A DNA stretch of 64,000 nt from Actinacidiphila bryophytorum (GTDB taxonomy: Bacteria > Actinomycetota > Actinomycetes > Streptomycetales > Streptomycetaceae), in assembly GCF_016916835.1 (NCBI RefSeq), contig NZ_JAFFIX010000003.1, positions 1-64,000 of the forward strand. Direction: 5' to 3'. Below are positions 44,900 through 62,529 of the stretch, one piece after another. How positions within the stretch are numbered: position 1 is the stretch's first letter; each line of letters opens with the position of its first letter. The position numbers and the translations under genes are program-made. Below the pieces are notes generated by a model. That model was given only the letters and a program-made list of their open reading frames with translations, did no database searches and was not told the DNA's origin.

Positions 44900-45104
44900 A
44901 CGGCAACAGTCCTGGCGATGGTGAAATACCGTCAACCCGTCGCCAGGGGCAACATATTGCCGCCGTTCCGCCGGATGACAGTTTCCTGTCACTGTACGGA
45001 CCCCCGGCGGGTACGCTGCGGGGGGCGGCGGGTGCAAGCAAGGAATAAGCCATTGCACCGGTTAAGTGCCTATTTGGCGCACCGCTACGGATTGTAGCCC
45101 ACCC

Positions 45105-45278: not shown

Positions 45279-45465
45279 TTCTGGCGTTCCCCGGCGTGTT
45301 TGTGAACGCGCTCTGAAAAGTCGTCTCATGTAGGCCGTTCGCGCACGCTACACAGAGCGTTCGGTGACCGGATACTGCCTGGCCGAGTCGCCCGGCAGCC
45401 CGCCAGGGCCGCAACCCGGTCCGGTCGGGCGCCCGGAACAGGCGGTGAGATGTTGGGAGTTCGGG

Positions 45466-46766: not shown

Positions 46767-46791
46767 CGGCCCGGGCCTCGTGCCCGGGCCG
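46767..46791 (+). terminator. Hairpin between SARP-box B and the monooxygenase
   Basis: A 10-bp GC stem (46767-46776 'cggcccgggc' with 46782-46791) and a 5-nt loop. It could end the SARP transcript, but it lies downstream of box B, so any transcript started there must pass through it. Confidence 0.5.
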
Positions 46792-46812
46792 TCATATGAG
46801 GGAAGGCAGAAC

Positions 46813-48591
46813 ATGGAGGCTATCGAGGTTCCGGTTCTGATCGTCGGCGGCGGCGGGTGCGGGTTGTCCGCGTCCTGCTTCCTGTCCGACCACGGAGTCG
46901 ACCACCTCCTGGTGGAACGGCACACGGACACGTCGAAACTGCCGAAGGCGCACTACCTCAACCAGCGCACGATGGAGATCTTCCGGCAGCACGGCCTGTA
47001 CGACGCGGCCGTCGAGAAGTCGGCGCCGCTGGAGAAGTTCGGCAGGGTCCGCTGGCAGACCACGCTCACCGGCGGCGGGCCGCTGGACACCCGGGTGATC
47101 CACGAGATGGACGCCTTCGGCGGCGGCGCACTCACCCCGGTCTACGCGGCGGCGGGACCCGTGCTGCCGATCAAGCTGCCGCAGCTGCGCCTTGAGCCGA
47201 TCCTGCGCAGCCAGGCCGAGCAGCGCAACCCCGGGCGGGTGCTGTTCGGCCACGAGCTGGCCGCCTTCACCGAGGACGGCGACCACGTGGCCGCCGAGAT
47301 CCGCGACATCGCGACCGGCGAGATCACCACCGTCACCGCCCGCTACGTCATCGCCGCCGACGGCGGCCGCACCCTCGGCCCGCAGCTGGGCGTCGAGATG
47401 CAGGGCGTGCCCAAGATGGTCGACGTCACCACCGCGTACTTCTCCGCCGACCTCTCGCAGTGGTGGCACGAGGGCACCATCATCACCTGGTTCCTCAACC
47501 CCTACCGCCCCGACCTGTCCAGCACCCTGCTGGAGATGGGGCCGAGCTGGGGCAAGGCCTGCGAGGAGTGGGGCCTGCACTTCATCCCCGGGGACGCCGA
47601 CCGCGACGACCACGAGGCGATCTCCGCCCGTATCCGCGAGGTGCTGGGCCTGCCGGGCCTGGACCTGACGCTGCACAAGGTGTCGCACTGGAGCGTGGAA
47701 GGCGTGCTCGCCGACCGCTACCGCGACGGCCGGGTGCTGATCGTCGGCGACGCCGCGCACCGGCAGCCGCCGACCACCGGGCTCGGCCTCAACGGCGGCA
47801 TCCAGGACGTGCACAACCTGGCGTGGAAGCTCGCCGCGGTCGTCTCGGGCCGCGCCGACGACAGCCTGCTGGACACCTACGAGGCCGAGCGGCGCCCGCT
47901 GGGCAAACGCAACGTCGAGTGGGGCCTTTCCACCTGGTTCCACCACCGGATGATGACCGAGGCCGCGGTGGGCCTGGGCGCGCACATCCCGCCGCACGCC
48001 CGCTCGTCGGCCTTCACCACCTACTTCGACGCCTCACCGGTCGGTGAGGTCGTCAGGGCGCGGGCCGCCGAGATCTTCGCCACCCACCGGGCCGAGTGCC
48101 AGGCGCACGACCTGGAGATCGGCTTCGGCTACGAGGACGGAGCGGTCCTTCCCGACGGTAGCGAGCCGCCCGCCCGCTCCCCGATGGGCACCGACTACCG
48201 CCCCACCACCCGCCCCGGGCACCGGCTGCCGCACGCCTGGGTCGAGCGCGACGGCGACCGGCTGTCCACGCACGACCTGGCGGGAACGGGCTTCGCGCTG
48301 ATCGCGGGCCCGCAGGGCGCGGCCTGGTGCGAGGCTGCGGCGCAGGTCGCGGAGAAGTTCGCGGTCCCGATCACCACGGCACGCATCGGGGAGGGCGCCG
48401 AGTACGCCGACGCCGACGGGCGGTGGGCGCAGGTACGGGAGTTCGGCGACGCCGGCGCGGTCCTGGTACGCCCCGACAACCACGTGGCCTGGCGGTCCAC
48501 GGGCGGCAGCGACACCCCCGCCGACGTCCTGAGCCAGGCGGTCGCGCACATCCTCGACCAGCGGGCCGCCGCCGCAGCAGCAGAGCGCTAG
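46813..48591 (+). CDS. FAD-dependent aromatic monooxygenase (PheA/TfdB type)
   Basis: A 592-residue class A flavoprotein hydroxylase. Motifs: the dinucleotide-binding 'VLIVGGGGCGLSASCFLSDH' (about 7-26), the DG motif 'YVIAADGGRTLGPQLGVEM' (about 178-196), the GD motif 'LIVGDAAHRQPPTTGLGLNG' (about 312-331) and a C-terminal thioredoxin-like domain ending in 'VAWRSTG' (about 562-568), as in polyketide hydroxylases. It probably oxidises tetrahydroxynaphthalene, flaviolin or the prenylated product to a quinone or hydroxyquinone. ATG 46813 follows GAGGGAAGG. The SARP-type array upstream (46685-46722) puts it in the cluster regulon. Confidence 0.9.
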   Translation: MEAIEVPVLIVGGGGCGLSASCFLSDHGVDHLLVERHTDTSKLPKAHYLNQRTMEIFRQHGLYDAAVEKSAPLEKFGRVRWQTTLTGGGPLDTRVIHEMDAFGGGALTPVYAAAGPVLPIKLPQLRLEPILRSQAEQRNPGRVLFGHELAAFTEDGDHVAAEIRDIATGEITTVTARYVIAADGGRTLGPQLGVEMQGVPKMVDVTTAYFSADLSQWWHEGTIITWFLNPYRPDLSSTLLEMGPSWGKACEEWGLHFIPGDADRDDHEAISARIREVLGLPGLDLTLHKVSHWSVEGVLADRYRDGRVLIVGDAAHRQPPTTGLGLNGGIQDVHNLAWKLAAVVSGRADDSLLDTYEAERRPLGKRNVEWGLSTWFHHRMMTEAAVGLGAHIPPHARSSAFTTYFDASPVGEVVRARAAEIFATHRAECQAHDLEIGFGYEDGAVLPDGSEPPARSPMGTDYRPTTRPGHRLPHAWVERDGDRLSTHDLAGTGFALIAGPQGAAWCEAAAQVAEKFAVPITTARIGEGAEYADADGRWAQVREFGDAGAVLVRPDNHVAWRSTGGSDTPADVLSQAVAHILDQRAAAAAAER

Positions 48592-48644: not shown

Positions 48645-48740
48645 ACTTCGGGTAGTCCCCGGCTGCGGTCACATCACGTCCCCGGGGCCTGTCAATACGA
48701 GCGGAGCCTGATGCTCGTTCACTGCGACTAGGAGATGAAC

Positions 48741-50276
48741 ATGTCAGCACGGAGCGCAGCCCCCGCGGCCGGACCTGGGCCGGGGGCGGCCGGGACAGCG
48801 GCCGGGGATTCCAGGCGGTGGCTGATCCTCACCGTCATCTGCACCGCCTACCTGATGATCACCCTCGACGTGACGGTGATGAACCTGGCGCTGCCGTCCG
48901 CCCAGGAGGCGCTGGACTTCTCCAACGCCGACAAGCAGTGGATCCTCACCGCCTACGCGCTCTGCTTCGGCAGCCTGCTGCTCTTCTGCGGGCGGCTCGC
49001 CGACCTCGTCGGCCGCAAGGAGACCTTCCTCATCGGCCTGAGCGGCTTCGCGATCGCCTCCGCCGTCGGCGGCGCCTCCACCAGCTTCGGCATGCTGGTC
49101 GCCGCCCGCGCCTGCCAGGGCGCCTTCGCCGCGCTGCTGGCGCCGACCGCCCTGTCGCTGCTCGCCACGACCTTCACCGACCCCAAGGAGCGCGGCAAGG
49201 CCTTCGGCGTCTTCAGCGCCGTCGCCGCCAGCGGCGGCGGCATAGGCCTGCTGATCGGCGGCGCACTGACCTCCGGCCTGTCCTGGCGCTGGTGCATGTA
49301 CGTCAACCTGGTCTTCGCCGCCGTAGCGCTGGCCGGCGGGCTGATGCTGCTGGCCCGGCAGCCCAGGTCCGGCGCCAAGATGGACGTGCCCGGCGTGGTC
49401 GTGGTCTCCGGCGGCATGTTCTGCGTCGTCTACGGCTTCTCCAACGCCGCCACCCACAGCTGGCACGCGACCTCCACCTGGGCCGTCCTGGCGGCCGGCG
49501 GCGTCCTGCTGGTCACCTTCGCCTTCTGGATGTTCCGCGCACCGCAGCCGCTGCTGCCGCCCCGCGTCGTCCTGGACCGCAACCGCGGCGGCTCCTACGT
49601 GACCGCGCTGATCGTCGGCATGGGCAGCTTCGGCGTCCTGCTCTTCCTCATCTACTACATGCAGACCGACCTGGGCTACTCGGCGATCACCTCGGGTGTG
49701 GCGCTGCTGCCGATGGTCGTGGTCACCGCGGTGGCGAGCAACGTGGGCAACATCATCGTGATGCCCACGTTCGGCCCGCGGCCGCTGGTCGCAGGCGGCA
49801 TGCTGATCAACGCCGGCGGCATGGCCTGGCTGACCCGTATCGGCCCCGACTCCTCGTACGCGGCGGCCCTGCTCGGCCCGACCGTCGTGATCGGCCTGGG
49901 CATGGGCCTGATCTACGCGGCGGCGCTGCGTACCGGCACCTCGGGGGTCGCACCGCAGGACGCGGGCATCGCCTCCGCCGCGATCAGCACCGGGCAGCAG
50001 CTCGGCGGCGCCATCGGCACCGCGCTGCTCAACACGATCGCGGCCAGCGCCGCCACCGACTACCTCAGCGGCCACGCGCACGGCAAGCCGAGCCCGGTGC
50101 AGATCCACCTGGCCACCATCCACGGGTACACCACCGTCTTCTGGTGGTGCACCGCCATCTTCGCCGCCGGTGCCGTCGTCTGCGGGGCGATGCTGCGCGG
50201 CGGCCCGCTGCCGGCGCCCGCGCACGGCCCCGGCGCCAAGAAGCCGGCCGTCCCGGCGGAAAAGGCCCGTTCCTGA
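48741..50276 (+). CDS. DHA2-type MFS drug transporter (14 TM)
   Basis: A 511-residue proton-driven exporter. DHA2 signatures: 'MITLDVTVMNLALPSAQEAL' (motif D1, about 38-57), 'GRLADLVGRKETFLIG' (motif A, about 82-97) and the motif C-like 'GVFSAVAASGGGIGLLIGGA' (about 154-173). An ATG at 48735 abuts the AGGAG, so ATG 48741 with 6-nt spacing was preferred. It lies between the monooxygenase and the ScyD-like gene, bounded by strong terminators, and is the obvious candidate for exporting the cluster product and for self-resistance. Confidence 0.92.
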   Translation: MSARSAAPAAGPGPGAAGTAAGDSRRWLILTVICTAYLMITLDVTVMNLALPSAQEALDFSNADKQWILTAYALCFGSLLLFCGRLADLVGRKETFLIGLSGFAIASAVGGASTSFGMLVAARACQGAFAALLAPTALSLLATTFTDPKERGKAFGVFSAVAASGGGIGLLIGGALTSGLSWRWCMYVNLVFAAVALAGGLMLLARQPRSGAKMDVPGVVVVSGGMFCVVYGFSNAATHSWHATSTWAVLAAGGVLLVTFAFWMFRAPQPLLPPRVVLDRNRGGSYVTALIVGMGSFGVLLFLIYYMQTDLGYSAITSGVALLPMVVVTAVASNVGNIIVMPTFGPRPLVAGGMLINAGGMAWLTRIGPDSSYAAALLGPTVVIGLGMGLIYAAALRTGTSGVAPQDAGIASAAISTGQQLGGAIGTALLNTIAASAATDYLSGHAHGKPSPVQIHLATIHGYTTVFWWCTAIFAAGAVVCGAMLRGGPLPAPAHGPGAKKPAVPAEKARS

Positions 50277-50356: not shown

Positions 50357-50394
50357 CAAGCCGGCGCCAAGCAGGCGAACAGTCCGGGCCAAGC
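50357..50394 (+). promoter_or_regulatory. SARP-box C upstream of the ScyD/ScyE-like gene
   Basis: CAAGC (50357), CAAGC (50368), ACAGT (50379) and CAAGC (50390), all in 11-bp register. Box A read on its own strand has the same order CAAGC-CAAGC-ACAGT-CAAG, separated by the same 6-nt spacers. Confidence 0.8.
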
Positions 50395-50526: not shown

Positions 50527-51711
50527 ATGTGGCGTCTCAAAACGAGTCGGTTGCTGTTCGCCGGCGTGGCGGCGGCGACAGCACTCGTCGGCGTGGGTGC
50601 AGGACCCTCGGCAGGGGCGGAGGCCCACTCGGCCCACCACCCCGGCCATCTGACCAGCAACGCACCGGTCACCGTCGTGGCCAGTGGCCTGAACTCACCG
50701 CGGAGCCTGGTCTGGGGGCCGCGCGGACACCTCATCGTCTCCGAGGCCGGCGAAACCCCGCCGACCTGTGTGGGCACCGGCTTCCCGACCAAGTGCTTCG
50801 GCTTCACCGGTTCGCTCGCGGACGTCTCCTCGGGCACCCCGGTGCGGATCGTCGACGGCCTGGCGTCGAACTTCAACCAGGAGGAGGTGGTCGGCGCCAA
50901 CGGCCTGACCTACTCCAACGGTCACCTGTACGTCCTGGAGACCGGTTCCGAGCAGCAGATCCCGGACACCATCCCGGCCGACCTCACCGCGCAGCTCACC
51001 AAGCAGTACGGCGGCCTGCTCAAGGTCTCCGGCACCTCGGTGCGCTCGGTCGCCAACGTCGGCTCCGTCGACTACGAGTGGACCGTCGCCCACAAGGACA
51101 TGGGCAGCAGCTACCCCGAGTCCAACCCGTACGCGGTGACCAACAAGCCCGGTGGCGGCTTCTACACCGTCAACGCGGCCTCCAACACCCTGGACTCCGT
51201 GGACCGCTGGGGCAACGTCAAGGTCCTCAAGTGGATCCCGAAGACCTCGACCGGTGTGGACTCCGTCCCCTCCTGCGTCGCGGTCGGCCCGGACCAGTCG
51301 GTCTACGTCGGTGAGATCACCGGCAAGCCCAGCTCGAACACCGAGGCCAAGATCTTCAAGTACAACCCGCGCACCGGCGACCTGTCGGTGTGGCAGTCGG
51401 GCTTCAGCGCCATCAGCGGCTGCGGCTTCGGCGCCAACGGCGACTTCTACGTCACCGAGTTCGACACCACCGGCTTCCTGCCGACCGGTGACCCGATCGG
51501 CGACGTCATCCAGATCAACCACCACACCAACGAGCGCACCGTCCTGGCGTCGGGCAAGCTCTTCGCGCCCACCGGCTTCCTGGCCGGCCGCGACGGCTCG
51601 ATCTACGTCGCCAGCAAGACGATGATGTGGCCCGCCTGCGACGACGCGCCGGCCTGCACCACGTCGTCGACCGTCACCGCACACGACGGAGAGATCATCA
51701 AGATCGGCTGA
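50527..51711 (+). CDS. Secreted ScyD/ScyE-family beta-propeller protein
   Basis: A 394-residue exported protein. The signal peptide ('RLLFAGVAAATALVGVGAGP' to 'AGAEA', about 8-32) is followed by an NHL/SMP-like propeller with 'SGLNSPRSLVWGPRGHLIVS', 'GANGLTYSNGHLYVLETG', 'NVKVLKWIPKTS' and 'APTGFLAGRDGSIYVASKT'. This is the family of ScyD and ScyE, which accompany the Ebo genes in cyanobacterial scytonemin clusters. ATG 50527 has GGAGGAG about 12 nt upstream. It is the first gene before an Ebo-like operon here and has its own SARP-type array, so a role in handling the pigment outside the membrane is a fair inference. The molecular activity is unknown. Confidence 0.75.
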   Translation: MWRLKTSRLLFAGVAAATALVGVGAGPSAGAEAHSAHHPGHLTSNAPVTVVASGLNSPRSLVWGPRGHLIVSEAGETPPTCVGTGFPTKCFGFTGSLADVSSGTPVRIVDGLASNFNQEEVVGANGLTYSNGHLYVLETGSEQQIPDTIPADLTAQLTKQYGGLLKVSGTSVRSVANVGSVDYEWTVAHKDMGSSYPESNPYAVTNKPGGGFYTVNAASNTLDSVDRWGNVKVLKWIPKTSTGVDSVPSCVAVGPDQSVYVGEITGKPSSNTEAKIFKYNPRTGDLSVWQSGFSAISGCGFGANGDFYVTEFDTTGFLPTGDPIGDVIQINHHTNERTVLASGKLFAPTGFLAGRDGSIYVASKTMMWPACDDAPACTTSSTVTAHDGEIIKIG

Positions 51712-51730
51712 CCCTGGCCGGTCACCTCCT

Positions 51731-51780
51731 GTTGCGGGCCGCGGCCGCGTGGCCCAAGGCCACGGGCCGCGGCCCGCAAC
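51731..51780 (+). terminator. Terminator after the ScyD/ScyE-like gene
   Basis: A long stem (51731-51746 'gttgcgggccgcggcc' with 51765-51780, extended by an inner cgtggcc/ggccacg stem) with a one-base bulge. It begins 20 nt after the stop, so the Ebo-like operon needs either read-through or its own promoter. Confidence 0.85.
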
Positions 51781-51835
51781 GGGAACCGCACCATCCGTTC
51801 GCTGTGCCTGTGACCCGTGATCGGAGGACAAGAAC

Positions 51836-53017
51836 GTGCGTGCTGGCATCTGGCTCATCGGCGCCCGCGGATCCGTCGCCACCACCAGCGTGGTCGGCGC
51901 CCTCGCGCTGCGCGCAGGACTGACAGACCCCGTGGGCTGCGCGACCGCCCACCCCGACATGAACAGCGCCGCACTTCCCGGCTTCGGCGACCTCCGGTTC
52001 GGCGGCCACGACGTGACCACGGGACCGCTGGCCAAGAAGGCCGAGCAGCTGGCCGCCGCCGGTGTCGTACCGGCCCGCCTGGTGCAGGCCGTCGCGTCCG
52101 AGCTGGACGAGGTCGACGCCGACCTGCGGCACGCCCCCGAGGGCGCCACCCAGGCCGAGACCGCCGCGCTCATCGCCCGCGACATCACCGACTTCCGCAC
52201 CCGCCACGGACTGGACCGGGTCGTGGTGGTCAACGTCTCCTCCACCGAGGCCGCGCCCCCCGAGCACCCCGCGCACGGCAGTCTCGACGCGCTGGCCGCC
52301 GCCCTCGCCGAGCCCGGCGAGGTGCTGCCGCCCAGCTCGCTCTACGCCTACGCGGCCTTCACCGCCGGCTGCCCCTACGTGGACTTCACCCCCTCCACCG
52401 GCGCCCGGCTGCCCGCGCTGGCCGAACTCGCCGATCAGCAGGCCCTGCCGTACGGCGGGCACGACGGCAAGACCGGCGAGACGCTGCTGAAGTCGGTGCT
52501 CGCCCCGATGTTCGCCATGCGCAACCTGGCGGTACGCACCTGGTCCGGCGTCAACCTGCTCGGCGGCGGCGACGGCGCCAACCTCGTCGACCCGGGCGCC
52601 AACGCCGCCAAGTCCGTCAGCAAGCAGCGGGTGCTGCACGAGACCCTCGGCTACGCGCCGGAGGGCGACACCCGCATCGACTACGTCGCCGACATCGGCG
52701 ACTTCAAGACCTCCTGGGACCTGGTCACCTTCGCCGGCTTCCTCGGCACCGGCATGTGCCTGCAGTTCACCTGGCAGGGCTGCGACTCCGCGCTCGCCGC
52801 CCCGCTCGTCCTGGACCTGGCCAGGATCACGCTGGCCGCGCACGAGGCGGGCCGCAGCGGGCCGCTGGAGCAGCTGGCGTACTTCTTCAAGGACCCGATG
52901 GGCGACGTCGACCACGCGCTGCACGCCCAGTGGGAGACGCTGCGCACCTTCGTCGGCGAGCTGAGCGCGGCCGGCGCGCCGAGCGGGCAGGCCGCCGAGG
53001 GCGGCGGCGGGCGGTGA
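51836..53017 (+). CDS. myo-Inositol-1-phosphate synthase-like sugar-phosphate cyclase
   Basis: A 393-residue NAD-dependent cyclase that should turn glucose 6-phosphate or a related sugar phosphate into a cyclitol phosphate. Supporting motifs: 'GIWLIGARGSVATTSVVG' (about 4-21), 'VVVVNVSSTEA' (about 129-139), 'DGKTGETLLKSVLAPMF' with the catalytic-type Lys (about 209-225), 'GVNLLGGGDGANLVDPG' (about 236-252) and 'VADIGDFKTSWDLVTFAGFL' (about 283-302). GTG 51836 follows CGGAGG. It is the first gene of a chain of overlapping Ebo-type genes and occupies the place where other Ebo clusters carry the dehydroquinate-synthase-like EboD. Its product may enter the Ebo-dependent carrier or lipid. Confidence 0.85.
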   Translation: MRAGIWLIGARGSVATTSVVGALALRAGLTDPVGCATAHPDMNSAALPGFGDLRFGGHDVTTGPLAKKAEQLAAAGVVPARLVQAVASELDEVDADLRHAPEGATQAETAALIARDITDFRTRHGLDRVVVVNVSSTEAAPPEHPAHGSLDALAAALAEPGEVLPPSSLYAYAAFTAGCPYVDFTPSTGARLPALAELADQQALPYGGHDGKTGETLLKSVLAPMFAMRNLAVRTWSGVNLLGGGDGANLVDPGANAAKSVSKQRVLHETLGYAPEGDTRIDYVADIGDFKTSWDLVTFAGFLGTGMCLQFTWQGCDSALAAPLVLDLARITLAAHEAGRSGPLEQLAYFFKDPMGDVDHALHAQWETLRTFVGELSAAGAPSGQAAEGGGGR

Positions 53018-53889
53018 CCGGGCTGCGCGACCTCGCGGAGCTGGTCCGCGCGCCCGCAGCCCTGTCCGTACCCGGCGACGCCGTCGCAGGCGCCGCAGCC
53101 GCCGGTGTGCTGGGCACCAGGACGGCGGGGCTCGCCGCGTCCGCGGTGTGCCTGTACTGGGCGGGCATGGCCGCCAACGACTGGGCCGACCGCGAACTGG
53201 ACGCCAAGGAGCGCCCCGAGCGGCCGATACCGTCCGGCCGCGTCCCCGCCGCCGCGGCCCTCGGCGTCGCCGCCGGCCTGAGCGCGGCAGGGCTCGCGCT
53301 CGCGGGCCTCGCCGGCGGCCGGCGGGCGCTCGCGGTGGCCGCACCGCTGACCGCGGCGGTGTGGGCGTACGACGTCCGCTTCAAGGGCACGGACGCGGGA
53401 CCGGCCGCCATGGCCGCCTGCCGCGGCCTCGACGTCCTGCTCGGCGCGACCTCCCGCCCGGGCCGCTGGTGGCGTGCGGCCGTGCCCGCGCTGACGGTGG
53501 CCGCCCACACCTACACCGTCACCGCGCTGTCCCGCCGCGAGGTCAGCGGCGCAGGCCGCCGGCTGCCCGCGGCCACACTGGCCGCCACCGCGGGCGTCGC
53601 ACTGGCCGCCTGCGAGATCCCGGCCGCCGCCCCCGTACTCCCGCAGCGGACCTGGCTGGCCCGCGGACTTGCCGGCTGGTACGCGGCCGGCTACGGGGCG
53701 CCGCAGGCCAGGGCGCTGGCCACCCCGGACGCCGCCAGTGTGCGGGCCGCGGTCGGCGCCGGGATCACCGGACTGCCCGCGCTCCAGGGCTCGCTGGTCG
53801 CCCGCTCCGGGGGAGTGCTGCCCGCCGCTGCCGTCGCCGCCTGCGCCCCGCTGGGCCGGGCACTGGCAAGGAGGATGTCACCGACATGA
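53014..53889 (+). CDS. eboC: UbiA-family prenyltransferase, EboC-like
   Basis: A 291-residue integral membrane prenyltransferase with about 8 hydrophobic helices. The prenyl-diphosphate-binding motif is 'NDWADRELDAKERPERPI' (about 55-72, NDxxDxxxD), and a second acidic region is 'VWAYDVRFKGTDAG' (about 112-125). GTG 53014 overlaps the cyclase stop. In Ebo clusters this protein is thought to make a prenylated carrier or quinol-like compound, not the end metabolite. Joining a prenyl chain to the cyclitol phosphate from the preceding gene is a specific possibility, but inferred. Confidence 0.8.
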   Translation: MTGLRDLAELVRAPAALSVPGDAVAGAAAAGVLGTRTAGLAASAVCLYWAGMAANDWADRELDAKERPERPIPSGRVPAAAALGVAAGLSAAGLALAGLAGGRRALAVAAPLTAAVWAYDVRFKGTDAGPAAMAACRGLDVLLGATSRPGRWWRAAVPALTVAAHTYTVTALSRREVSGAGRRLPAATLAATAGVALAACEIPAAAPVLPQRTWLARGLAGWYAAGYGAPQARALATPDAASVRAAVGAGITGLPALQGSLVARSGGVLPAAAVAACAPLGRALARRMSPT

Positions 53890-54764
53890 GCGTGCGCTTC
53901 GGCTACGGCACCAACGGCTTCGCCAACCACCGCCTGGAGGACGCCCTCACCATCATCGCCGACCTCGGCTACGAGGGTGTCGCCCTGACCCTGGACCACC
54001 AGCACCTCGACCCCTACGGCCCCGACCTGCCGCGCCGGATCGACGCCCTCGCGGCCCGGCTCGACCGGCTCGGGCTCGCCGTGGTCGTCGAGACCGGCGC
54101 CCGCTACCTGCTCGACCCCCGGCACAAGCACGCCCCGACCCTGCTGGACGACGAGCCCGCGCTGCGTCTTGACTTCCTGCGGCGGGCGGTGCGCATCGGG
54201 GCCGACCTCGGCGCCGAGGCCGTCTCCTTCTGGGCCGGGATCCGCCCCTCCGACGTGCCCGAGGCGGCGGCCTGGGACCGGCTGGTACGCGGCTGCGCCG
54301 AGATCACCGCGGCCGCGGACGCCGCCGGTGTGCTGCTGGGCTTCGAACCGGAACCCGGCATGCTCGTGCAGACCATCGACGACTGGTTCACCCTGCAGGG
54401 CCGGCTCGGCGCCCCCGACTGCTTCGGCCTGACCCTCGACATCGGGCACTGCCGCTGCATCGAGCCCTGGCCGGTGGCCGAGTGCGTGGCCAAGGCGGGC
54501 CCGCACCTGGTCAACGTGCAGATCGACGACATGCGCAGGGACGTCCACGAGCACCTGGAGTTCGGCACCGGCGAGGTCGACTTCCCCGCCGCGCTCGGCG
54601 CGCTGGCCGCCACCGGCTACGGCGGGCTCACCGCCGTGGAGCTGCCCCGGCACTCCCATGCCGCACCGGGCGTCGCCGCGTCGTCGCTGGCCTTCCTCAC
54701 CGACGCACTGGCCACCGCCCGGGCCGCGGGCGCACACCGCGAAGCCAAGGAGGCCGCACGATGA
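53886..54764 (+). CDS. Sugar phosphate isomerase/epimerase-like TIM barrel
   Basis: A 292-residue xylose-isomerase-like barrel (AP endonuclease 2 superfamily). Metal-ligand-type residues are seen in 'GVLLGFEPEPGM' (about 150-161), 'GLTLDIGHCRCIEP' (about 180-193), 'VNVQIDDMRRDVHEHLEFG' (about 206-224) and 'AVELPRHSH' (about 251-259). It starts inside the UbiA stop codon (ATGA) and ends inside the EboA start. It could isomerise the sugar or cyclitol made by the first gene. It is distinct from the EboE barrel encoded three genes later. Confidence 0.8.
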   Translation: MSVRFGYGTNGFANHRLEDALTIIADLGYEGVALTLDHQHLDPYGPDLPRRIDALAARLDRLGLAVVVETGARYLLDPRHKHAPTLLDDEPALRLDFLRRAVRIGADLGAEAVSFWAGIRPSDVPEAAAWDRLVRGCAEITAAADAAGVLLGFEPEPGMLVQTIDDWFTLQGRLGAPDCFGLTLDIGHCRCIEPWPVAECVAKAGPHLVNVQIDDMRRDVHEHLEFGTGEVDFPAALGALAATGYGGLTAVELPRHSHAAPGVAASSLAFLTDALATARAAGAHREAKEAAR

Positions 54765-55411
54765 CCGCAGGACAGCTCGCCGACCTGCTCGACGGCCGGG
54801 TGGCCGACCCGGACTGGCTGGCCGGCGCGGTGGACCGGGTGGCGCGCGACCCCGACGCGCTCGCCGCCCTCTTCCCCGCGGCGGGCCGCCGCTGCGGCCG
54901 CGGCCCGCTGTCCGGGACCGCCCCGCGGTCCGAGACCGGCGGCACCGACCCGGCCGGCTGGACCGTGGACGACGCGGCCCGCGTCCTGCTGCTGACCGCC
55001 CTGCCGCTGAGCGGGGCCGCACTGGCCGAGCAGGTCGAGGCCGTGTACCGGTACGGCAGCGCCGACGAGAAGCGGGCGGTGCTGCGCGCGCTGCCGCTGC
55101 TGGACATCGGCGCCGGCGGCGTGGAGATCCTGCACGACGCGATCCGTACCAACGACACCCGGCTGGTCGCCGCAGCCGTCGGCCCCTACGCCCGCCACCT
55201 GGACGCGGCCATGTGGCGGCAGGCCGTGCTCAAGTGCGTCTTCATGGACATCCCGCTGACCGCGGTGGACGGGCTCGACCGCCGTGCCGACGGCGAACTG
55301 GGCCGGATGCTCGGCGACCTGGCCGACGAGCGGCGGGCCGCGGGCCGCACCATGCCCGCCGACGCCGACATCCTGCTGGCGCTCATCGGCGACCTGCCGC
55401 CCGAGGGATGA
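54761..55411 (+). CDS. eboA: EboA-domain protein
   Basis: A 216-residue helical protein with no enzyme motif. The EboA hallmark block is 'VEAVYRYGSADEKRAVLRAL' onward with 'DAIRTNDTRLVAAAVGPYAR' and 'VLKCVFMDIPLTAVDGLDRR' (about 88-175), which looks like short HEAT-type helices. The ATG overlaps the TIM-barrel stop. The family is only known from Ebo clusters, where it is required for moving a metabolite precursor across the inner membrane in cyanobacteria. The molecular role is unknown. Confidence 0.82.
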   Translation: MTAGQLADLLDGRVADPDWLAGAVDRVARDPDALAALFPAAGRRCGRGPLSGTAPRSETGGTDPAGWTVDDAARVLLLTALPLSGAALAEQVEAVYRYGSADEKRAVLRALPLLDIGAGGVEILHDAIRTNDTRLVAAAVGPYARHLDAAMWRQAVLKCVFMDIPLTAVDGLDRRADGELGRMLGDLADERRAAGRTMPADADILLALIGDLPPEG

Positions 55412-55449
55412 CCACAGTCAAGGAACAACGCGAGGGGAAGGCAGGCTGA
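55408..55449 (+). CDS. Possible 13-codon coupling ORF between eboA and the TatD gene
   Basis: An ATG overlapping the EboA stop (ATGA at 55408) opens 13 codons that end in a TGA overlapping the next ATG (TGATG, 55447-55451). It contains the GAGGGGAAGG ribosome site of the TatD-like gene. It may serve only to keep ribosomes moving across the 37-nt gap; a functional peptide is unlikely. Confidence 0.25.
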   Translation: MTTVKEQREGKAG

Positions 55450-56300
55450 TGCGCATCTTCGACCCGCACATCCACATGACCTCACGCACCACCGACGACT
55501 ACGAGCGCATGGCGGCCGCCGGGGTGCGGGCGCTGGTCGAGCCGGCCTTCTGGCTCGGCCAGCCGCGTACCAACGCGGGCGCCTTCACCGACTACTTCGA
55601 CTCGCTGATCGGCTGGGAGCCCTTCCGCGCGGCCCAGTTCGGCATCCGCCACCACTGCACCATCGGCCTGAACCCCAAGGAGGCCAACGACCCGCGCTGC
55701 CGCGAGGTGCTCGGCCTGCTGCCCCGCTACCTGGCCAAGGACGGCGTCGTCGCGGTCGGCGAACTCGGCTACGACTCCATGACGCCCGAGGAGGACGAGG
55801 TCTTCGCGGCGCAACTCGCCCTCGCCGTCGAGCACGAGCTGCCCGCCCTGGTCCACACCCCGCACCGCGACAAGCACCGCGGCACCCTGCGCACCCTGGA
55901 CGTCGTCAAGGAGTCCGGCATCGACGCCGGCATGGTCGTCGTGGACCACCTCAACGAGGTGACCGTCGGCTCGGTCGCCGGCAGCGGCTGCTGGATGGGC
56001 TTCTCCATCTACCCCGGCACCAAGATGTCACCCGACCGGATGGCCGCGGTGCTGCGCGAGTACGGCCCCGAGCGGATGCTGGTCAACTCCGCCGCCGACT
56101 GGGGCCGCAGCGACCCGCTGCTGACCCTGGCCACCGGGCAGGCCATGCTGGCGGCCGGCTTCGGCGACGACGACGTCGACCGGGTGCTGTGGCGCAACCC
56201 CGTCGAGTTCTACGCCCAGTCCGGGCGGCTCGACCTGTCCGCGACCGACGGGCAGCCCGCGGCCTTCGCCGGCAACTCCATCGCCCGCGGGGGCAACTGA
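55449..56300 (+). CDS. eboB: TatD-family metal-dependent hydrolase, EboB-like
   Basis: A 283-residue TIM-barrel hydrolase of the TatD/amidohydrolase superfamily. Metal ligands: 'FDPHIHMTSR' (His-x-His, about 4-13), 'AVGELGYDSMT' (Glu, about 100-110), 'PALVHTPHRDKHRGT' (about 128-142), 'MVVVDHLNEVTV' (about 157-168) and 'NSAADWG' (about 214-220). ATG 55449 follows GAGGGGAAGG. In Ebo clusters a TatD-like protein is constant; its substrate is not known. The next ATG overlaps this stop (TGATG). Confidence 0.82.
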   Translation: MRIFDPHIHMTSRTTDDYERMAAAGVRALVEPAFWLGQPRTNAGAFTDYFDSLIGWEPFRAAQFGIRHHCTIGLNPKEANDPRCREVLGLLPRYLAKDGVVAVGELGYDSMTPEEDEVFAAQLALAVEHELPALVHTPHRDKHRGTLRTLDVVKESGIDAGMVVVDHLNEVTVGSVAGSGCWMGFSIYPGTKMSPDRMAAVLREYGPERMLVNSAADWGRSDPLLTLATGQAMLAAGFGDDDVDRVLWRNPVEFYAQSGRLDLSATDGQPAAFAGNSIARGGN

Positions 56301-57469
56301 TGCGGCTGCGGCACCGCGACGGGCAGACCGTCCACCTCGGCTACTGCACCAACGTCCACGCCGGCGAGCAGCTCGCGGAGATCGTCGGCCAGCTGGACAC
56401 CTACGCGGTCACCGCCCGCCGCATGCTCGGCGGCGACCTGCTCGGCGTCGGGCTGTGGCTGGCCGCGCCCGTCGCCGCCCAGCTCGCCGCCGACCCCGGG
56501 CAGGTCGAGCAGCTGCGGCACGACCTGGAGGCGCGCGGCCTGGAAGTGGTCACCCTCAACGGCTTCCCCTACCGCTCCTTCCACGCCCCCGTCGTCAAGC
56601 ACGCCGTCTACCAGCCGGACTGGCTGACCGACGCGCGCATGGACTACACCGCGGACCTGGCCCTGGTGCTCGCCGGGCTGCTCCCCGACGACGCCGCCCG
56701 CGGCTCGGTCTCCACCCTGCCGCTGGCCTGGCGCACCCCCTGGACCGCCGAGCACCGGGACGCGGGCCGCAGGCGGCTGGCCGAACTCGCCGACCGGCTC
56801 GCCGCGGTGCACGACCGCACCGGGCGCCTGGTGCGGGTCGGCTTCGAGGCCGAGCCCGGCTGCGTCATGGAGACCACCGGGCAGCTCGCCGCGGAACTGG
56901 CCGGCGCCGACACCCGCTACCTGGGGGTGTGCCTGGACCTGGCGCACCTGGCCTGCGCCTGGGAGGAGCCCGCGGCCGCGCTCGCCCGGCTGGCCGCGGT
57001 GGGCCTTCCGGTGGTCAAGGTGCAGGTGTCCGCGGCACTCCAGGCCGAGGACCCGCAGGACCCGGCCACCGCCGCGGCGCTGCGCCGCTACGCCGAGCCC
57101 CGCTTCCTGCACCAGACCCGCTCGGCGGCAGGCCCGGCCGCCGACGACCTCGCCGAGGCCCTCGACGCCGACCTGCCAGGGCCGCTGCGGGTCCACTACC
57201 ACGTGCCGGTGCACGCCGCCCCGCAGCCGCCGCTGCGCTCCACCACCGGCGTGCTGCGCAGCGCGCTGGCCGAACTCGTCGGCGGCGAGCAGGCCGTGTG
57301 CGACCACCTGGAGGTGGAGACGTACACCTGGAACGTGCTCCCGCCGGGGCAGCGCCCCGAGGGACCCGACCGGCTCGCCGAGGGCATCGCCGCCGAACTC
57401 GCCTTCACCCGGGGCGAACTGCACGCCCTGGGCCTGCGCGACCAACCCGTGAGGGAGATGACCCGGTGA
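56300..57469 (+). CDS. eboE: EboE, xylose-isomerase-like metabolite-traffic protein
   Basis: A 389-residue TIM-barrel protein. It opens with the EboE signature 'HLGYCTNVHAGEQLAEIVGQ' (about 12-31). It continues with 'LNGFPYRSFHAPVVKHAVYQ' (about 88-107), 'RVGFEAEPGCVMETTGQLAA' (about 178-197), 'LGVCLDLAHLACAWEEP' (about 209-225) and 'VHYHVPVHA' (about 299-307), whose His/Glu/Asp residues suit a divalent-metal site. It overlaps the TatD stop and its own stop overlaps the phosphodiesterase start. Known only from Ebo clusters; reaction unknown. Confidence 0.85.
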   Translation: MRLRHRDGQTVHLGYCTNVHAGEQLAEIVGQLDTYAVTARRMLGGDLLGVGLWLAAPVAAQLAADPGQVEQLRHDLEARGLEVVTLNGFPYRSFHAPVVKHAVYQPDWLTDARMDYTADLALVLAGLLPDDAARGSVSTLPLAWRTPWTAEHRDAGRRRLAELADRLAAVHDRTGRLVRVGFEAEPGCVMETTGQLAAELAGADTRYLGVCLDLAHLACAWEEPAAALARLAAVGLPVVKVQVSAALQAEDPQDPATAAALRRYAEPRFLHQTRSAAGPAADDLAEALDADLPGPLRVHYHVPVHAAPQPPLRSTTGVLRSALAELVGGEQAVCDHLEVETYTWNVLPPGQRPEGPDRLAEGIAAELAFTRGELHALGLRDQPVREMTR

Positions 57470-58854
57470 ACCGACCACCGACCCCGCTCGTCGTCCTCGA
57501 CGTCGTCGGGCTGACCCCGCGGCTGCTGCGGCACATGCCGCGGCTCGCCTCGATCGCCGACACCGGCTGGCAGTCCGGGCTCACCCCGGTGCTGCCCGCC
57601 GTCACCTGCTCGGTGCAGGCCACCCTGCTCACCGGCGCACCGCCGAGCGAGCACGGCATCGTCGGCAACGGCTGGTACTTCCGCGACCTCGGCGAAGTCC
57701 TGCTGTGGCGGCAGCACAACAAGCTCATGGGCGGCGACAAGCTGTGGGACGCGGCCCGCCGCGAGCACCCCGGCTACACCGTCGCCAACATCTGCTGGTG
57801 GTACGCGATGGGCGCCGACACCGACTGGACGGTCACCCCGCGCCCCATCTACTACGCCGACGGCCGCAAGGAACCCGACTGTTACACCGACCCGCCCGAG
57901 CTGCACGACGAACTGACCGCGGCCCTCGGCCCCTTCCCGCTGTTCACCTACTGGGGACCCACCGCGGGACTGCCCTCGTCCGCGTGGATCGCCGGCGCCG
58001 CGCAGCAGGTCATGGCCAGGCACGACCCCGACCTGACGCTGGTCTACGTCCCGCACCTGGACTACGACCTGCAGCGCTTCGGCCCCTCGGGTCCGCAGGC
58101 CGCGGCCGCCGCCGCCGAACTGGACGCGGTGCTCGCCCCGCTGCTCGACCACGCACGCGAGCGCGGCGCGACCGTCGTCGCCCTGTCCGAGTACGGCATC
58201 ACGCGGGCCACCCGCCCGGTCGACGTCAACCGGCTGCTGCGCCGCGAGGGCCTGCTGCGGGTCCACACCCAGGACGGCATGGAGTACCTGGACCCGTGGA
58301 CCTCACGGGCCTTCGCCGTCGCCGACCACCAGGTCGCGCACGTCTACGTCGACGACCCCGCCGACCTGCCGCTGGTCCGCAAGCTGTGCGCGGAGCTGCC
58401 CGGCGTCGCCGAGGTGCTCGGCGAGCAGGAGAAGGCGGCGTACGGCCTGGACCACGAGCGGGCCGGCGAACTGGTCCTGGTCGCCGAGGACGACGCGTGG
58501 TTCACGTACTACTACTGGCTGGACGACGCCCGCGCCCCGGACTTCGCCCGGCTGGTGGAGATCCACCGCAAACCCGGCTACGACCCCGCCGAGCTGTTCT
58601 TCGACCCGGCCGCCCCTGCCGCGGCCAAGCGCAGGGCGGGTGTGGCGCTGGCCCGCAAGAAGCTCGGCATGCGCTACCTGATGAGCGCCATCGGCCTGGA
58701 CGCCGGCGCCGCCGCCGTCCGCGGCAGCCACGGACGGCTGCCCGCCGACCCGCAGGACGGCCCCGTCCTGCTGTGCTCGCAGCCGTACGGCGCCCGCGAG
58801 CGGTACCGGGCCACCGAGGTCAAGCAGCTGCTGCTCGACCTCGCCTCGCGGTAG
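57466..58854 (+). CDS. eboF: Alkaline phosphatase-fold phosphodiesterase, EboF-like
   Basis: A 462-residue protein of the type I phosphodiesterase/nucleotide pyrophosphatase family. Metal and nucleophile features: 'PLVVLDVVGLTPRLLRHMP' (about 7-25), the nucleophile-type Thr in 'PAVTCSVQATLLTGAPPSEH' (about 43-62), 'VYVPHLDYDLQRFGP' (about 190-204), 'VVALSEYGIT' (about 238-247) and 'FAVADHQVAH' (about 281-290). Unlike many relatives it has no signal peptide. Last gene of the Ebo-type operon, convergent with ispG. It may cleave a phosphoanhydride or phosphate ester on the Ebo-dependent carrier. Confidence 0.83.
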   Translation: MNRPPTPLVVLDVVGLTPRLLRHMPRLASIADTGWQSGLTPVLPAVTCSVQATLLTGAPPSEHGIVGNGWYFRDLGEVLLWRQHNKLMGGDKLWDAARREHPGYTVANICWWYAMGADTDWTVTPRPIYYADGRKEPDCYTDPPELHDELTAALGPFPLFTYWGPTAGLPSSAWIAGAAQQVMARHDPDLTLVYVPHLDYDLQRFGPSGPQAAAAAAELDAVLAPLLDHARERGATVVALSEYGITRATRPVDVNRLLRREGLLRVHTQDGMEYLDPWTSRAFAVADHQVAHVYVDDPADLPLVRKLCAELPGVAEVLGEQEKAAYGLDHERAGELVLVAEDDAWFTYYYWLDDARAPDFARLVEIHRKPGYDPAELFFDPAAPAAAKRRAGVALARKKLGMRYLMSAIGLDAGAAAVRGSHGRLPADPQDGPVLLCSQPYGARERYRATEVKQLLLDLASR

Positions 58855-58927: not shown

Positions 58928-60085
58928 TCAGGGTGTGACGACCACCGGCTTTCCCGTCGCGCCCTCGTCGCCCGCCTCCTCGGCCAGCCGCATGGCCTCG
59001 TCGATCAGCGTCTCCACGATCTTCGACTCGGGCACCGTCGCGACGACCTTGCCCTTGACGAAGATCTGCCCCTTGCCGTTGCCAGAGGCCACACCGAGGT
59101 CCGCGTCGCGCGCCTCGCCGGGGCCGTTGACGACGCAGCCCATCACCGCGACCCGCAGCGGCACTTCGAGCCCGTCAAGACCCGCGGTGACCTCCTCGGC
59201 CAGCTTGTAGACGTCGACCTGCGCCCGGCCGCAGGAGGGGCAGGAGACGATCTCCAGCCGGCGCTGGCGCAGGTTCAGCGACTCCAGGATCGCGATGCCG
59301 ACCTTGGCCTCCTCGGCGGGCGGCGCCGACAGCGACACCCGGATGGTGTCGCCGATGCCCTCGGCCAGCAGCACCCCGAAGGCCACCGAGGACTTCACCG
59401 TGCCCTGGAAGAACGGCCCGGCCTCGGTCACCCCCAGGTGCAGCGGGTAGTCGCAGGCCGCCGCGAGCTTGCGGTAGGCCGAGACCATCACCACCGGGTC
59501 GTGGTGCTTGACGGAGATCTTGATGTCGCGGAAGCCGTGCTCCTCGAACAGCGAGCACTCCCACAGCGCCGACTCCACCAGCGCGTCGGGCGTGGCGCTG
59601 CCGTGCTTGGCCAGCAGCCGCTTGTCCAGCGAACCGGCGTTGACGCCGATCCTGATCGGCACCTGCGCGTCGGCCGCGGCCTTCGCGATCTCGGCGACCT
59701 TGTCGTCGAACTCCTTGATGTTGCCCGGGTTCACCCGGACCGCCGCGCATCCCGCGTCGATCGCCGCGAAGACGTACCGGGGCTGGAAGTGGATGTCGGC
59801 GATCACCGGGATCTGCGACTTGCGGGCGATCTGCGGCAGCGCCTCCGCGTCATCGGCGGACGGCACCGCCACCCGTACGATCTGGCAGCCGGACGCGGTC
59901 AGTTCGGCGATCTGCTGGAGCGTGGCGTTCACGTCCGCGGTCACCGTCGTGGTCATCGACTGCACGCTCACCGGCGCCCCGCCGCCCACCAGCACGGCGC
60001 GGTCGTCGTGGCCCAGCTTCAGCTGCCGGCTCACCCGGCGCGGGGCGAGGGTCGGGGGTATCTGGGGTATGCCGAGATCCACCAT
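58928..60085 (-). CDS. ispG: 4-hydroxy-3-methylbut-2-enyl-diphosphate synthase (IspG)
   Basis: A 385-residue iron-sulfur enzyme that converts MEcPP to HMBPP in the MEP pathway. The TIM-barrel part has '[20 protein letters not shown]' (about 37-56), '[18 protein letters not shown]' (about 93-110) and '[16 protein letters not shown]' (about 115-130). The [4Fe-4S] cysteines are in '[17 protein letters not shown]' (about 276-292) and '[18 protein letters not shown]' (about 315-332). It lies 75 nt downstream of the IspH-fusion gene on the same strand and is probably co-transcribed with it. GGAGAGG precedes the ATG. It adds a second MEP enzyme to the cluster. Confidence 0.94.
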
Positions 60086-60160: not shown

Positions 60161-62173
60161 TCAGCGGTCCCGGTAGGCCACCTGCGTGGCCATCTCGCCG
60201 AGCCGCTCCCGCCAGCCGTCCGCCAGCGGCGCCGCGTCCAGTGCCGTACGGGCGGTCGTCACCAGCTCGTCGATCCGCTTCTCGATCTCCTCGCGCACCC
60301 CGGAGGCCAGCAGCGCCGCACGCAGCGCCGCCGGGTCGAAGTCGCCTTCCGCGCCCTGCTCCAGCAGCCGTGCCACCTCGGCGTCCTCGGTGGCCGCCAG
60401 CGCCAGCAGCAGGTTCATCTTGTGCTCGCTGACGTCGAGCCCGGCGGGCTTGCCGGTCGCCGCCGAGTCGCCGAACGCGTCCAGCAGGTCGTCGCGCAGC
60501 TGGAAGGCCTCGCCGGCCGCGAGCCCGTACGCCTCGAAGGCCTTCTGCAGGTCGTCGCGCCCGGCCAGGGCCGCGCCGAGCGACAGCGGGCGCTGGATGG
60601 TGTACCGGCCGGACTTGCCCACCGCGATCCAGCGCGCCAGGTCGGCGTCCGGCACGGCCTCGGCGGCCAGCGCGATGTCCAGGTGCTGGCCGACCAGCAT
60701 CTCGGTGCCCAGGTGCATCCAGATCGCCCGGGCGTGCGCGGGCAGCCCGCCGGCCAGCCGGTGGGCGTAGCCGAAGGCCAGGTCGCCGGCCAGGATCGCC
60801 ACGCCTTCGCCGAAGCGGCGGGCCTCGCCGGCCCAGCCGGACTCCTCGTGGACGGCCGCGTGCCTGGCGTGCACGGTCGGCTCGCCGCGCCGGGTGGGGG
60901 AGTTGTCCAGCACGTCGTCGTGGATGAGGGCGTGCGCGTGCAGCAGTTCCAGGCCCGCGGCCGCCGCGACGACCGCGTCCACGCCCTCGGCGTCCTCCAG
61001 GGTGCCGCCCGCGGCCAGGTAGCCGGAGATGCAGAAGGTCGGGCGCAGCCGCTTGCCGCCCGCCGCGACCAGTTCCCTGACCGCCTCGACCGGCACCGCG
61101 GCGCGCGCGTCGACCGCGCCCCAGTGGGCGATCTCGGCGGACAGCAGCTCCTCGATCCTGGCGCTGACCTGCTCCAGCAGTTCCGCGGTCGCGTCGACGG
61201 CCCGCGCCGCGGGCGGCTCCAGGCCCAGCGGCGGCCGGAAGACCACCGTCTCGACCGCGGTGACCTCGGTCTCGACGTCGGCGTAGCCCAGTTCGGCGAG
61301 CCGCTGCACGACCTGCTCCACCAGGAGTTCCGGCGCGCTGGCGCCGGCGCTCAGGCCCACGGTGCCGACCCCGGCCAGCCAGTCGGGGTCCAGGTGCCCG
61401 GCGTCGGGCAGCAGATACGCCCGGGTGCCGGCGTCCTCGGCGACCTCCACCATCCGCACGGTGTTGCTGGAGTTGGCCGAGCCGACCACCAGCACCAGGT
61501 CGCTGCGGGCGGCGATCGACTTCACCGAGTTCTGCCGGTTCTGGCTGGCGTAGCAGACGTCGTCGGTGCCGGGACCGGTCAGGCGGGGGAAGCGCTCGTG
61601 CAGGATCCCGACGATCTCCTCGGTGTCGTCGAGGGAGAGCGTGGTCTGGGTGAGGTAACTGACGTCGGCGTCCGCGGGCAGGTCCAGCTGCCTGGCCTCG
61701 TCCGCGTCCTGCACGATGACCGTGCGGTCGGGCGCCTCGCCGAAGGTGCCCTCGATCTCCTCGTGGTCGGCGTGCCCGACCAGGATCAGGGTGCGCCCGT
61801 CGCGGGCGTACCTGCGCGCCTCCTGGTGGACCTTCGCCACCAGCGGGCACGTCGCGTCGATGACGGTCAGGTTGCGTTCGGCCGCGTTGCCGCGCACCTG
61901 GGGGGAGACGCCGTGCGCGGAGAAGATGCACACCGCGCCGTCCGGAACCTCGGTCTCGGAGTCGACGAAGACCGCGCCGCGCCCCTCCAGTTCGCGCACC
62001 ACGTGCTCGTTGTGCACGATCTGCTTGCGTACGTAGACGGGGGCCCCGTGCAGCTCGAGCGCGCGCTCCACGATCTCAATGGCCCTGCGCACACCGGCGC
62101 AGAAGCCGCGCGGCTCTGCCAGAATGACCTTCTTGCCGCCCGATTGCCGCCTGTTGTCCAGTGTGGTAGCCAT
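60161..62173 (-). CDS. Fusion of IspH (HMBPP reductase) and polyprenyl diphosphate synthase
   Basis: A 670-residue two-enzyme protein. Residues about 12-318 are IspH, which reduces HMBPP to IPP and DMAPP. The three cluster cysteines are Cys25 ('AEPRGFCAGV'), Cys109 ('VIDATCPLVAKVH') and Cys207 ('DVCYASQNRQNSVK'), and 'LVVGSANSSNT' is present. Residues about 325-670 are a trans-isoprenyl diphosphate synthase with both Asp-rich motifs, 'LIHDDVLDNSPTRRGEPTVH' (from 417) and 'FQLRDDLLDAFGD' (from 557). The fusion makes C5 units and couples them in one polypeptide, presumably giving GPP for the NphB-like enzyme; the chain length is inferred. ATG 62173 was chosen as the IspH start (MATTLD), with no clear ribosome site; an in-frame TTG at 62209 is the alternative. 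Confidence 0.92.
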   Translation of the reverse strand: MATTLDNRRQSGGKKVILAEPRGFCAGVRRAIEIVERALELHGAPVYVRKQIVHNEHVVRELEGRGAVFVDSETEVPDGAVCIFSAHGVSPQVRGNAAERNLTVIDATCPLVAKVHQEARRYARDGRTLILVGHADHEEIEGTFGEAPDRTVIVQDADEARQLDLPADADVSYLTQTTLSLDDTEEIVGILHERFPRLTGPGTDDVCYASQNRQNSVKSIAARSDLVLVVGSANSSNTVRMVEVAEDAGTRAYLLPDAGHLDPDWLAGVGTVGLSAGASAPELLVEQVVQRLAELGYADVETEVTAVETVVFRPPLGLEPPAARAVDATAELLEQVSARIEELLSAEIAHWGAVDARAAVPVEAVRELVAAGGKRLRPTFCISGYLAAGGTLEDAEGVDAVVAAAAGLELLHAHALIHDDVLDNSPTRRGEPTVHARHAAVHEESGWAGEARRFGEGVAILAGDLAFGYAHRLAGGLPAHARAIWMHLGTEMLVGQHLDIALAAEAVPDADLARWIAVGKSGRYTIQRPLSLGAALAGRDDLQKAFEAYGLAAGEAFQLRDDLLDAFGDSAATGKPAGLDVSEHKMNLLLALAATEDAEVARLLEQGAEGDFDPAALRAALLASGVREEIEKRIDELVTTARTALDAAPLADGWRERLGEMATQVAYRDR

Positions 62174-62287
62174 ATGGAAAAGGGTGCGGAACCGCGGGGG
62201 CGAACACAAGGATCCCGGTGGGGCAGATTATTGTCACGCCGTCACAATGAGGTGCCCGCAAAGCAGCCGTGCAGCCCGGCTTCTGCG

Positions 62288-62314: not shown

Positions 62315-62427
62315 GCGTCCTGCGGGACCGACGTTCGGGAAGCCGTGTGCCGGGAGGCCTGTGATGCCTATCGGAACGGCTGTGACCTGCGCTGACCTGA
62401 TCACCCGGGCATTCTGCGCGCCCTCCC

Positions 62428-62454
62428 AAGTCGCCACCAAGCCGATCGCAAGTT
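62428..62454 (+). promoter_or_regulatory. SARP-box D2 upstream of rppA
   Basis: CAAGT (62428), CAAGC (62439) and CAAGT (62450), exactly 11 bp apart, about 76-102 nt before the rppA start. The 356-nt intergenic stretch 62174-62529 holds D1 and D2 back to back and no gene I can support. Confidence 0.75.
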
Positions 62455-62529
62455 AAATGGGCAACGATATGGCGTACTGCGTCGGGATGTTTCGGGGAAA
62501 TCTCAACCCACAGAAGGCGGATGCCAGGT

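Follow-up and report, generated by a model that had tools for sequence, protein, structure and literature searches.

A ScyE and Ebo gene module with a myo-inositol phosphate synthase-like enzyme in an NphB/RppA meroterpenoid cluster of Actinacidiphila bryophytorum

The stretch analysed here, hereafter the window, comprises 64,000 nucleotides of Actinacidiphila bryophytorum (contig NZ_JAFFIX010000003.1, positions 1 to 64,000). At 50527-58854 it holds eight co-directional genes encoding a ScyD/ScyE-family protein (ScyE), a myo-inositol phosphate synthase (MIPS)-like protein, EboC, a TIM barrel protein, EboA, EboB, EboE and EboF. They sit between nphB and rppA, as a reading of the sequence alone (the sequence-only reading) had placed them, inside a cluster whose PF11468 prenyltransferase, type III polyketide synthase (PKS) and aromatic monooxygenase mark it as an NphB/RppA meroterpenoid cluster. 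The interpretation preferred here, held tentatively at a probability of about 0.45, is that ScyE and the Ebo module have been recruited into this flaviolin-type cluster, and that a lipid made by the Ebo enzymes would help the aromatic leave the cytoplasm. Genomes and loci of the comparison sets are cited by G and L numbers.

From the MIPS-like gene through EboF, consecutive genes overlap by 1-4 nt, except for a 37-nt gap 5' of EboB, and all seven reading frames of core plus MIPS are open. The Ebo genes and the ScyD/ScyE-family protein named by the sequence-only reading are present, with scores above curated cut-offs where such exist (Table 1); its gene list overlooked the MIPS-like and isomerase genes and left the absence of EboD unremarked. 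EboC passes the SCO3242-family cut-off and scores 123 bits with the canonical EboC model, below the cut-off of 250, and EboA passes the EboA-domain cut-off and scores 82 bits with the full EboA-family model, below 320. The EboE model matches a single place in this genome. Neither ScyE nor EboC has a solved relative in the PDB at E 0.01, and none of the solved relatives of EboA is convincing. The N-terminus of ScyE, judged by eye, looks like a Sec signal peptide.

A tblastn search with an EboD query from locus L067 gave no match in the window. The MIPS-like protein finds its best PDB match, full length at 237 bits, in 1u1i, an Archaeoglobus-type Ino1, and the alignment keeps the lysine-bearing active-site motifs of that structure; we take these lysines to be catalytic. 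With the actinomycete mycothiol Ino1 structure 1gr0 it reaches 33.8 bits only, and with the mycothiol inositol-3-phosphate synthase model TIGR03450 it scores 31.5 bits, below the equivalog cut-off of 638. Another PF01658 gene lies on contig C88 of the same genome.

The same gene content extends across actinomycetes. Named genomes were scanned by EboF alignment, and the best 80 of 581 confirmed candidates, a set biased to close relatives, included 63 complete loci with at least 7 kb upstream of EboF. These carry MIPS in 54 cases, the isomerase in 62, EboA in 61 and EboD in none. In a phylum sample, 19 of 396 genomes have ebo, ten of them outside the family; nine of the ten were examined (G664, below cut-off, was left out), and eight loci are of the MIPS type and one, G763, of the EboD type, without EboA, isomerase or MIPS. 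A search for further EboD-type operons in the class of G763 returned G763 alone (1/149). EboF also matches 51 plasmid records, 28 of them Streptomyces plasmids. Among the 13 records viewed, MIPS is annotated in 6/6 Streptomyces loci and EboD in 0/6, and the non-actinomycete loci show the reverse, with 3-dehydroquinate synthase (EboD) in 7/7 and inositol-3-phosphate synthase in 0/7; tblastn also showed EboD in four of these seven. We propose from these comparisons that an archaeal-type MIPS-like gene stands in for EboD in actinomycete ebo operons. EboD, the DHQS-like cyclase of known ebo operons, is described as a sugar phosphate cyclase by Yurchenko et al. (PMC5133447), who propose from sequence an isoprenoid-cyclitol product and also describe actinobacterial EboA fused to a xylose-isomerase-like domain. 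The word "inositol" is absent from PMC5133447 and PMC6282210, and searches of the open-licence literature, which leaves most subscription journals outside, yielded no report of MIPS in ebo operons or of ebo with NphB.

Isoprenoid genes adjoin ebo beyond the window as well. In 21 loci among the best 80 of 581, all Micromonosporaceae by name, a polyprenyl synthase gene starts -12 to +132 nt from the end of EboF. Nonomuraea typhae carries a run of polyprenyl synthase, IspH, IspG and Dxs genes after ebo, with no NphB or RppA match in its 19-kb locus, and an IDI2 gene adjoins the EboD-type locus. The methylerythritol phosphate (MEP) pathway genes of the window may therefore serve Ebo, NphB or both. 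Taken alone, the proposition that ebo yields an isoprenoid-cyclitol is probable. In the N. typhae locus (L217) the ebo gene order is unusual and a SARP-like gene lies nearby.

These neighbours lend themselves to the main rival explanation, which we consider somewhat unlikely: Ebo would make a prenylated cyclitol metabolite or lipid of its own, sharing the dxs/ispG/ispH/polyprenyl-synthase supply with the NphB cluster and having no role in export. It agrees with the isoprenoid-cyclitol proposal in the passage of PMC5133447, with the occurrence of ebo beside polyprenyl synthase or the full four-gene run without NphB matches, and with the 168 of 394 family genomes that have EboE and no PF11468 match. 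As the sole reason for the association, a shared supply is made less likely by G327, of another genus, and by the clusters of three Streptomyces sp. plasmids (NBC_00019, NBC_00028 and NBC_00663), which keep ebo and give no match to Dxs, IspG or IspH. Against a stand-alone product, a link to aromatics is suggested by the ScyE gene that immediately precedes MIPS-ebo in several unrelated aromatic clusters and by the phenotypes of Nostoc, in which Ebo is needed for export of an aromatic intermediate (PMC6282210).

The claim that ebo is embedded in this cluster, and is no chance neighbour of it, is supported: a second genus and three plasmids show the same gene content in another order. Clusters of the window type are found in G004 (on two contigs), G010, G024 and G027, and in G030 without the core. 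G327 and the three plasmids share ScyE, MIPS, the ebo core, MFS exporter, monooxygenase, SARP, NphB, type III PKS, aminotransferase and methyltransferase genes in altered order; the plasmid clusters add a multicopper oxidase and cyd genes. In S. camelliae, an aromatic prenyltransferase gene immediately follows ScyE-MIPS-ebo and a multicopper oxidase is present too; the annotation of this stretch shows no type III PKS. In G002 and G012, ebo and ScyE lie some 22-25 kb away from a different NphB (41-42% identity), which is accompanied by mevalonate genes. A type II PKS cluster of G126 has ScyE directly before MIPS-ebo, and Pfam identifies ketosynthase, ketoreductase, FAD monooxygenase, O-methyltransferase, glutamine-synthetase and lyase genes on its flanks; the translated open reading frames of G343 and G290 look similar (the Pfam scan of these two covering the G343 amidase only). 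This direct adjacency in G126 and in the clusters with multicopper oxidase counts in favour of the preferred interpretation.

Several features of these clusters deserve mention in their own right. Glutamine-synthetase, amidase and adenylosuccinate-lyase-like genes accompany ebo in G126 (L137/L138), G343 (L139/L140), G290 (L141) and a plasmid of Streptomyces sp. AMCC400023 (L244), a set known from kinamycin- and fluostatin-type clusters. Cytochrome bd genes cydA/B and cydD/C adjoin clusters of ScyE, ebo and prenyltransferase (L235, L236, L242, L234, L117) and possibly serve tolerance to a quinone product. In L234 (25291-25614), a 2Fe-2S protein gene is labelled as tet(W/32/O) resistance in the plasmid table, and its product name suggests a false prediction.

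A further explanation, which we judge improbable, holds that EboC prenylates the naphthoquinone itself, so that the operon would serve as a tailoring branch of pigment biosynthesis. According to PMC9235831, membrane assays of the EboC homologue Ubi-297 show farnesylation of 8-hydroxyquinoline-2-carboxylic acid and, to a moderate degree, of 1,3-dihydroxynaphthalene. Against this explanation, NphB is already present in the cluster, the conserved cyclitol-type genes would have no explanation, and ebo cores adjoin many unrelated clusters.

Across the family, EboE is simply common: 198 of the 394 genomes have it, as do 14 of the 35 from the genus. PF11468 is found in 47 family genomes, and the ScyE family in 25, with 34 genes. 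At genome level, ScyE genes associate with ebo and more strongly with NphB-type genes (counts given as both, first only, second only, neither). ScyE against NphB gives 14/11/33/336 (p=3e-8; p=0.002 outside the genus), ScyE against EboE gives 21/4/177/192 (p=6e-4; p=0.07 outside), and NphB against EboE gives 30/17/168/179 (p=0.06; p=0.29 outside the genus and p=0.004 inside), all p-values being too small because genomes are not independent. A general association of ebo with nphB, the check offered by the sequence-only reading, is not borne out. Co-located ebo-NphB pairs among the EboE matches listed are a lower bound, and more are possible, for example in G220, G274 or G350. Several pairs of ScyE and NphB have no local ebo, as in G340 and on contig C34 of G000. 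In the latter (G000:C34:195000-234999, L134/L135), a second NphB-type gene of that genome, with a SARP-type repeat 5' of it and no local ebo match, lies about 10 kb from a ScyE-family gene.

Second copies and split loci were followed in 39 genomes that were chosen rather than sampled, namely 33 with two or more EboE rows and six of the genus. An ebo-type MIPS (at least 299 bits) occurs in 39/39, including those whose second ebo copy is without one. MIPS lies within 8 kb of EboE in 50 of 71 places, or 49 without one doubtful row of the 59 (G329:C14, a 60-residue fragment of 29.9 bits), rows of split EboE fragments being excluded; of the 21 places without a near MIPS, at least three (G004 and two in G290) resemble contig breaks. 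In G030, the NphB cluster keeps ScyE and MIPS and lacks the six core genes from EboC to EboF between MIPS and IspG; its one EboE stands at 598 kb without MIPS, and the match to its one ebo-type MIPS, in the NphB cluster, contains a TAG that by position lies at about residue 377 of 393, past the conserved domain. G004 and G010 show the reverse split: EboE is confined to the NphB cluster, and a second MIPS stands alone at another locus. Both ebo loci are complete in G024 and G027, the second copy lying at an unrelated position. The split genomes look as if two loci fed one pathway; random loss of genes that are redundant would leave an identical picture.

Another type of ebo copy has IMPase-family and FAD oxidoreductase genes where MIPS would otherwise lie upstream. 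It occurs in 11 Streptomyces loci (L084, L086, L095, L121, L123-L126, L128, L131 and L132), where GGT is also among the upstream genes, and in three among the best 80 of 581 named loci.

The notion that the ebo genes are functionless passengers, carried with the cluster on plasmids, is very improbable. The G030 cluster without the core and the 28 Streptomyces plasmids among the 51 plasmid records speak in its favour; it is opposed by the retention of ScyE, MIPS and core with the same pigment genes despite rearrangement, in the second genus and on three plasmids, and by the seven open reading frames of the window.

The history of the operon was addressed with an EboF tree of 148 rows, built by a quick method with no supports other than SH-aLRT. 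The NphB-linked copies from G327 and five members of the genus group in a single clade (99), which nests in 39 rows that are largely from Micromonosporaceae and Streptosporangiaceae (98). In G024, G027 and G030 the other copies lie apart from it, and those of G002 and G012 occupy a third place; the placements indicate that an ebo operon entered a cluster with NphB on at least two occasions. An ebo lineage dedicated to NphB was considered and dropped: close relatives occur in G009 and G013 of the genus and in Micromonosporaceae without an NphB or RppA match in the stretches examined.

The SARP-type array that the sequence-only reading placed on the ScyE-like gene is real, and the case for shared regulation of ebo is weakened by its position before ScyE and by a conserved hairpin. 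The pattern CAAG[CT]-N6-CAAG[CT] occurs six times in the window, where 60 first-order Markov simulations gave 0.2 (maximum 1); the comparison is post hoc, as the pattern was written after inspection of those gaps. All six repeats precede NphB, the FAD monooxygenase, ScyE or RppA. Independent support comes from its recurrence in sister clusters of the genus, where it precedes RppA in 5/5 and ScyE in 4/5 (the exception being G024), NphB in G004 only and the monooxygenase in none; the exact pattern is absent from G327 and from two of four plasmid clusters scanned. Between ScyE and MIPS, a hairpin of -80 kcal/mol (z -7.0) has comparable counterparts in 11/11 clusters folded, namely the window, six others and four plasmid clusters, so the array need not control ebo.

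Under the preferred interpretation, whose reactions, lipid, export and oxidation we infer, RppA, the monooxygenase, the aminotransferase, the methyltransferase and NphB would together yield, in the cytoplasm, a prenylated (amino)naphthoquinone. The MIPS-like enzyme, replacing EboD, would convert a sugar phosphate into a cyclitol phosphate, which the TIM barrel protein, EboB and EboE would modify and from which EboF would remove the phosphate. EboC would then attach a polyprenyl chain, drawn from the MEP and polyprenyl-synthase supply encoded alongside, to give a membrane lipid. As in Nostoc, exit of the aromatic product, or of an intermediate, from the cytoplasm would depend on this lipid; passage of a naphthoquinone across the membrane by means of Ebo is suggested by that analogy. 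Secreted ScyE may oxidise or couple the exported aromatic outside the cell, with the MFS exporter acting in parallel.

Several observations weigh against this interpretation. The cluster already has an MFS exporter, and the hairpin may disconnect ScyE, with its array, from the ebo genes that follow. NphB and ebo are not significantly associated across the family, four of the 25 genomes with a ScyE-family gene give no EboE match, and a PF11468 gene lies within 40 kb of 17 of the 34 ScyE genes (counted by eye), leaving half without. G030 keeps the rest of the cluster without a local core, so local Ebo is dispensable there, with the core elsewhere in the genome perhaps filling in. The window gave no match to a multicopper oxidase.

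A scytonemin-like logic, which we regard as unlikely, would go further. An inositol-based Ebo lipid would aid release, and secreted ScyE, joined by the multicopper oxidase in sister clusters, would couple the naphthoquinone into a pigment bound to wall or sheath; the cyclitol ring would come from EboD or MIPS, two unrelated cyclases.

The ebo operon is known from cyanobacteria to algal plastids, and the exchange of EboD for MIPS across actinomycetes, together with the polyprenyl synthase of Micromonosporaceae operons, points to a prenylated cyclitol. The exchange makes the Ebo product approachable through easily assayed enzymes, the natural splits (G030, G004 and G010) and second copies are ready-made genetic tests, and the ScyE-ebo pair in aromatic clusters offers a Gram-positive system for asking whether Ebo moves aromatics across the membrane.

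Table 1. Features of the cluster in the window, with model scores in bits and curated cut-offs where available.
Feature	Position	Strand	Match or remark
SARP-type direct repeat CAAG-N7-CAAG, 11-bp period	50357..50372	+	5' of ScyE gene
ScyD/ScyE-family protein	50527..51711	+	NF033206 234.8 bits, cut-off 80
Strong hairpin in ScyE/MIPS-like gap, possible terminator or processing element	51727..51784	+	Folding
MIPS-like protein, relative of archaeal-type inositol-1-phosphate synthase	51836..53017	+	PF07994 171 bits, PF01658 98 bits
EboC / SCO3242-family UbiA prenyltransferase	53014..53889	+	NF045897 361.8 bits, cut-off 260
Xylose-isomerase-like TIM barrel (TIMx)	53886..54764	+	PF01261 116.8 bits
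EboA	54761..55411	+	NF035938 (EboA domain) 165.2 bits, cut-off 50
EboB, TatD-like hydrolase	55449..56300	+	PF01026 48.4 bits; PDB relative 3guw 117 bits
EboE	56300..57469	+	NF035939 equivalog 406.4 bits, cut-off 250
EboF, phosphodiesterase/phosphatase family	57466..58854	+	PF01663 213.3 bits
NphB-type ABBA aromatic prenyltransferase	41930..42847	-	PF11468 176 bits
SARP-type site, NphB	42924..42950	-	
Dxs (as called; internal true start possible)	42989..45058	-	PF13292 362 bits
AfsR/SARP regulator	45364..46623	+	PF03704, PF00486
SARP-type site, monooxygenase	46685	+	
FAD aromatic monooxygenase	46780..48591	+	PF01494, PF21274
MFS exporter	48735..50276	+	PF07690 156.8 bits
IspG	58928..60085	-	PF04551 462 bits
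IspH fused to polyprenyl diphosphate synthase	60161..62209	-	PF02401 + PF00348
SARP-type site, RppA	62427..62453	+	
RppA-type type III PKS	62521..63633	+	PF00195, PF02797

Beyond RppA, the contig continues with a DegT aminotransferase gene and then an O-methyltransferase gene. At 3540-11537 the window also holds a hybrid megasynthase with AMP-binding, ketosynthase, acyltransferase and ketoreductase domains, with transport genes further on, in a cluster separate from the NphB/RppA one.

Compared with known systems, the window shares with the flaviogeranin and furaquinocin clusters an RppA-type PKS, an FAD monooxygenase, a DegT aminotransferase, an O-methyltransferase and an NphB-type prenyltransferase, and differs from them in the embedded ScyE and ebo genes and in carrying MEP rather than mevalonate pathway genes. 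Its gene set is consistent with the 8-amino-flaviolin route, as a portion of PMC7463872 presents it. The MIPS-like protein resembles archaeal 1u1i over its full length and in the lysine-bearing motifs. EboC falls in the NCBIfam family named after S. coelicolor SCO3242, in whose neighbourhood we know of no NphB or RppA gene. In the CDA region of Streptomyces coelicolor, SCO3243 is a myo-inositol phosphate synthase, according to a passage of PMC3610822. Unlike Nostoc punctiforme, the window has no EboD, carries a MIPS-like protein and an extra TIM-barrel isomerase, belongs to an actinomycete without an outer membrane and should give another product class. With the ebo and scyE genes of Nostoc, a pair that cyanobacteria employ to complete the sunscreen scytonemin outside the cytoplasm, it has in common EboA, EboB, EboC, EboE, EboF and a ScyE-family secreted protein nearby, and an aromatic, redox-active product would be expected here as there.

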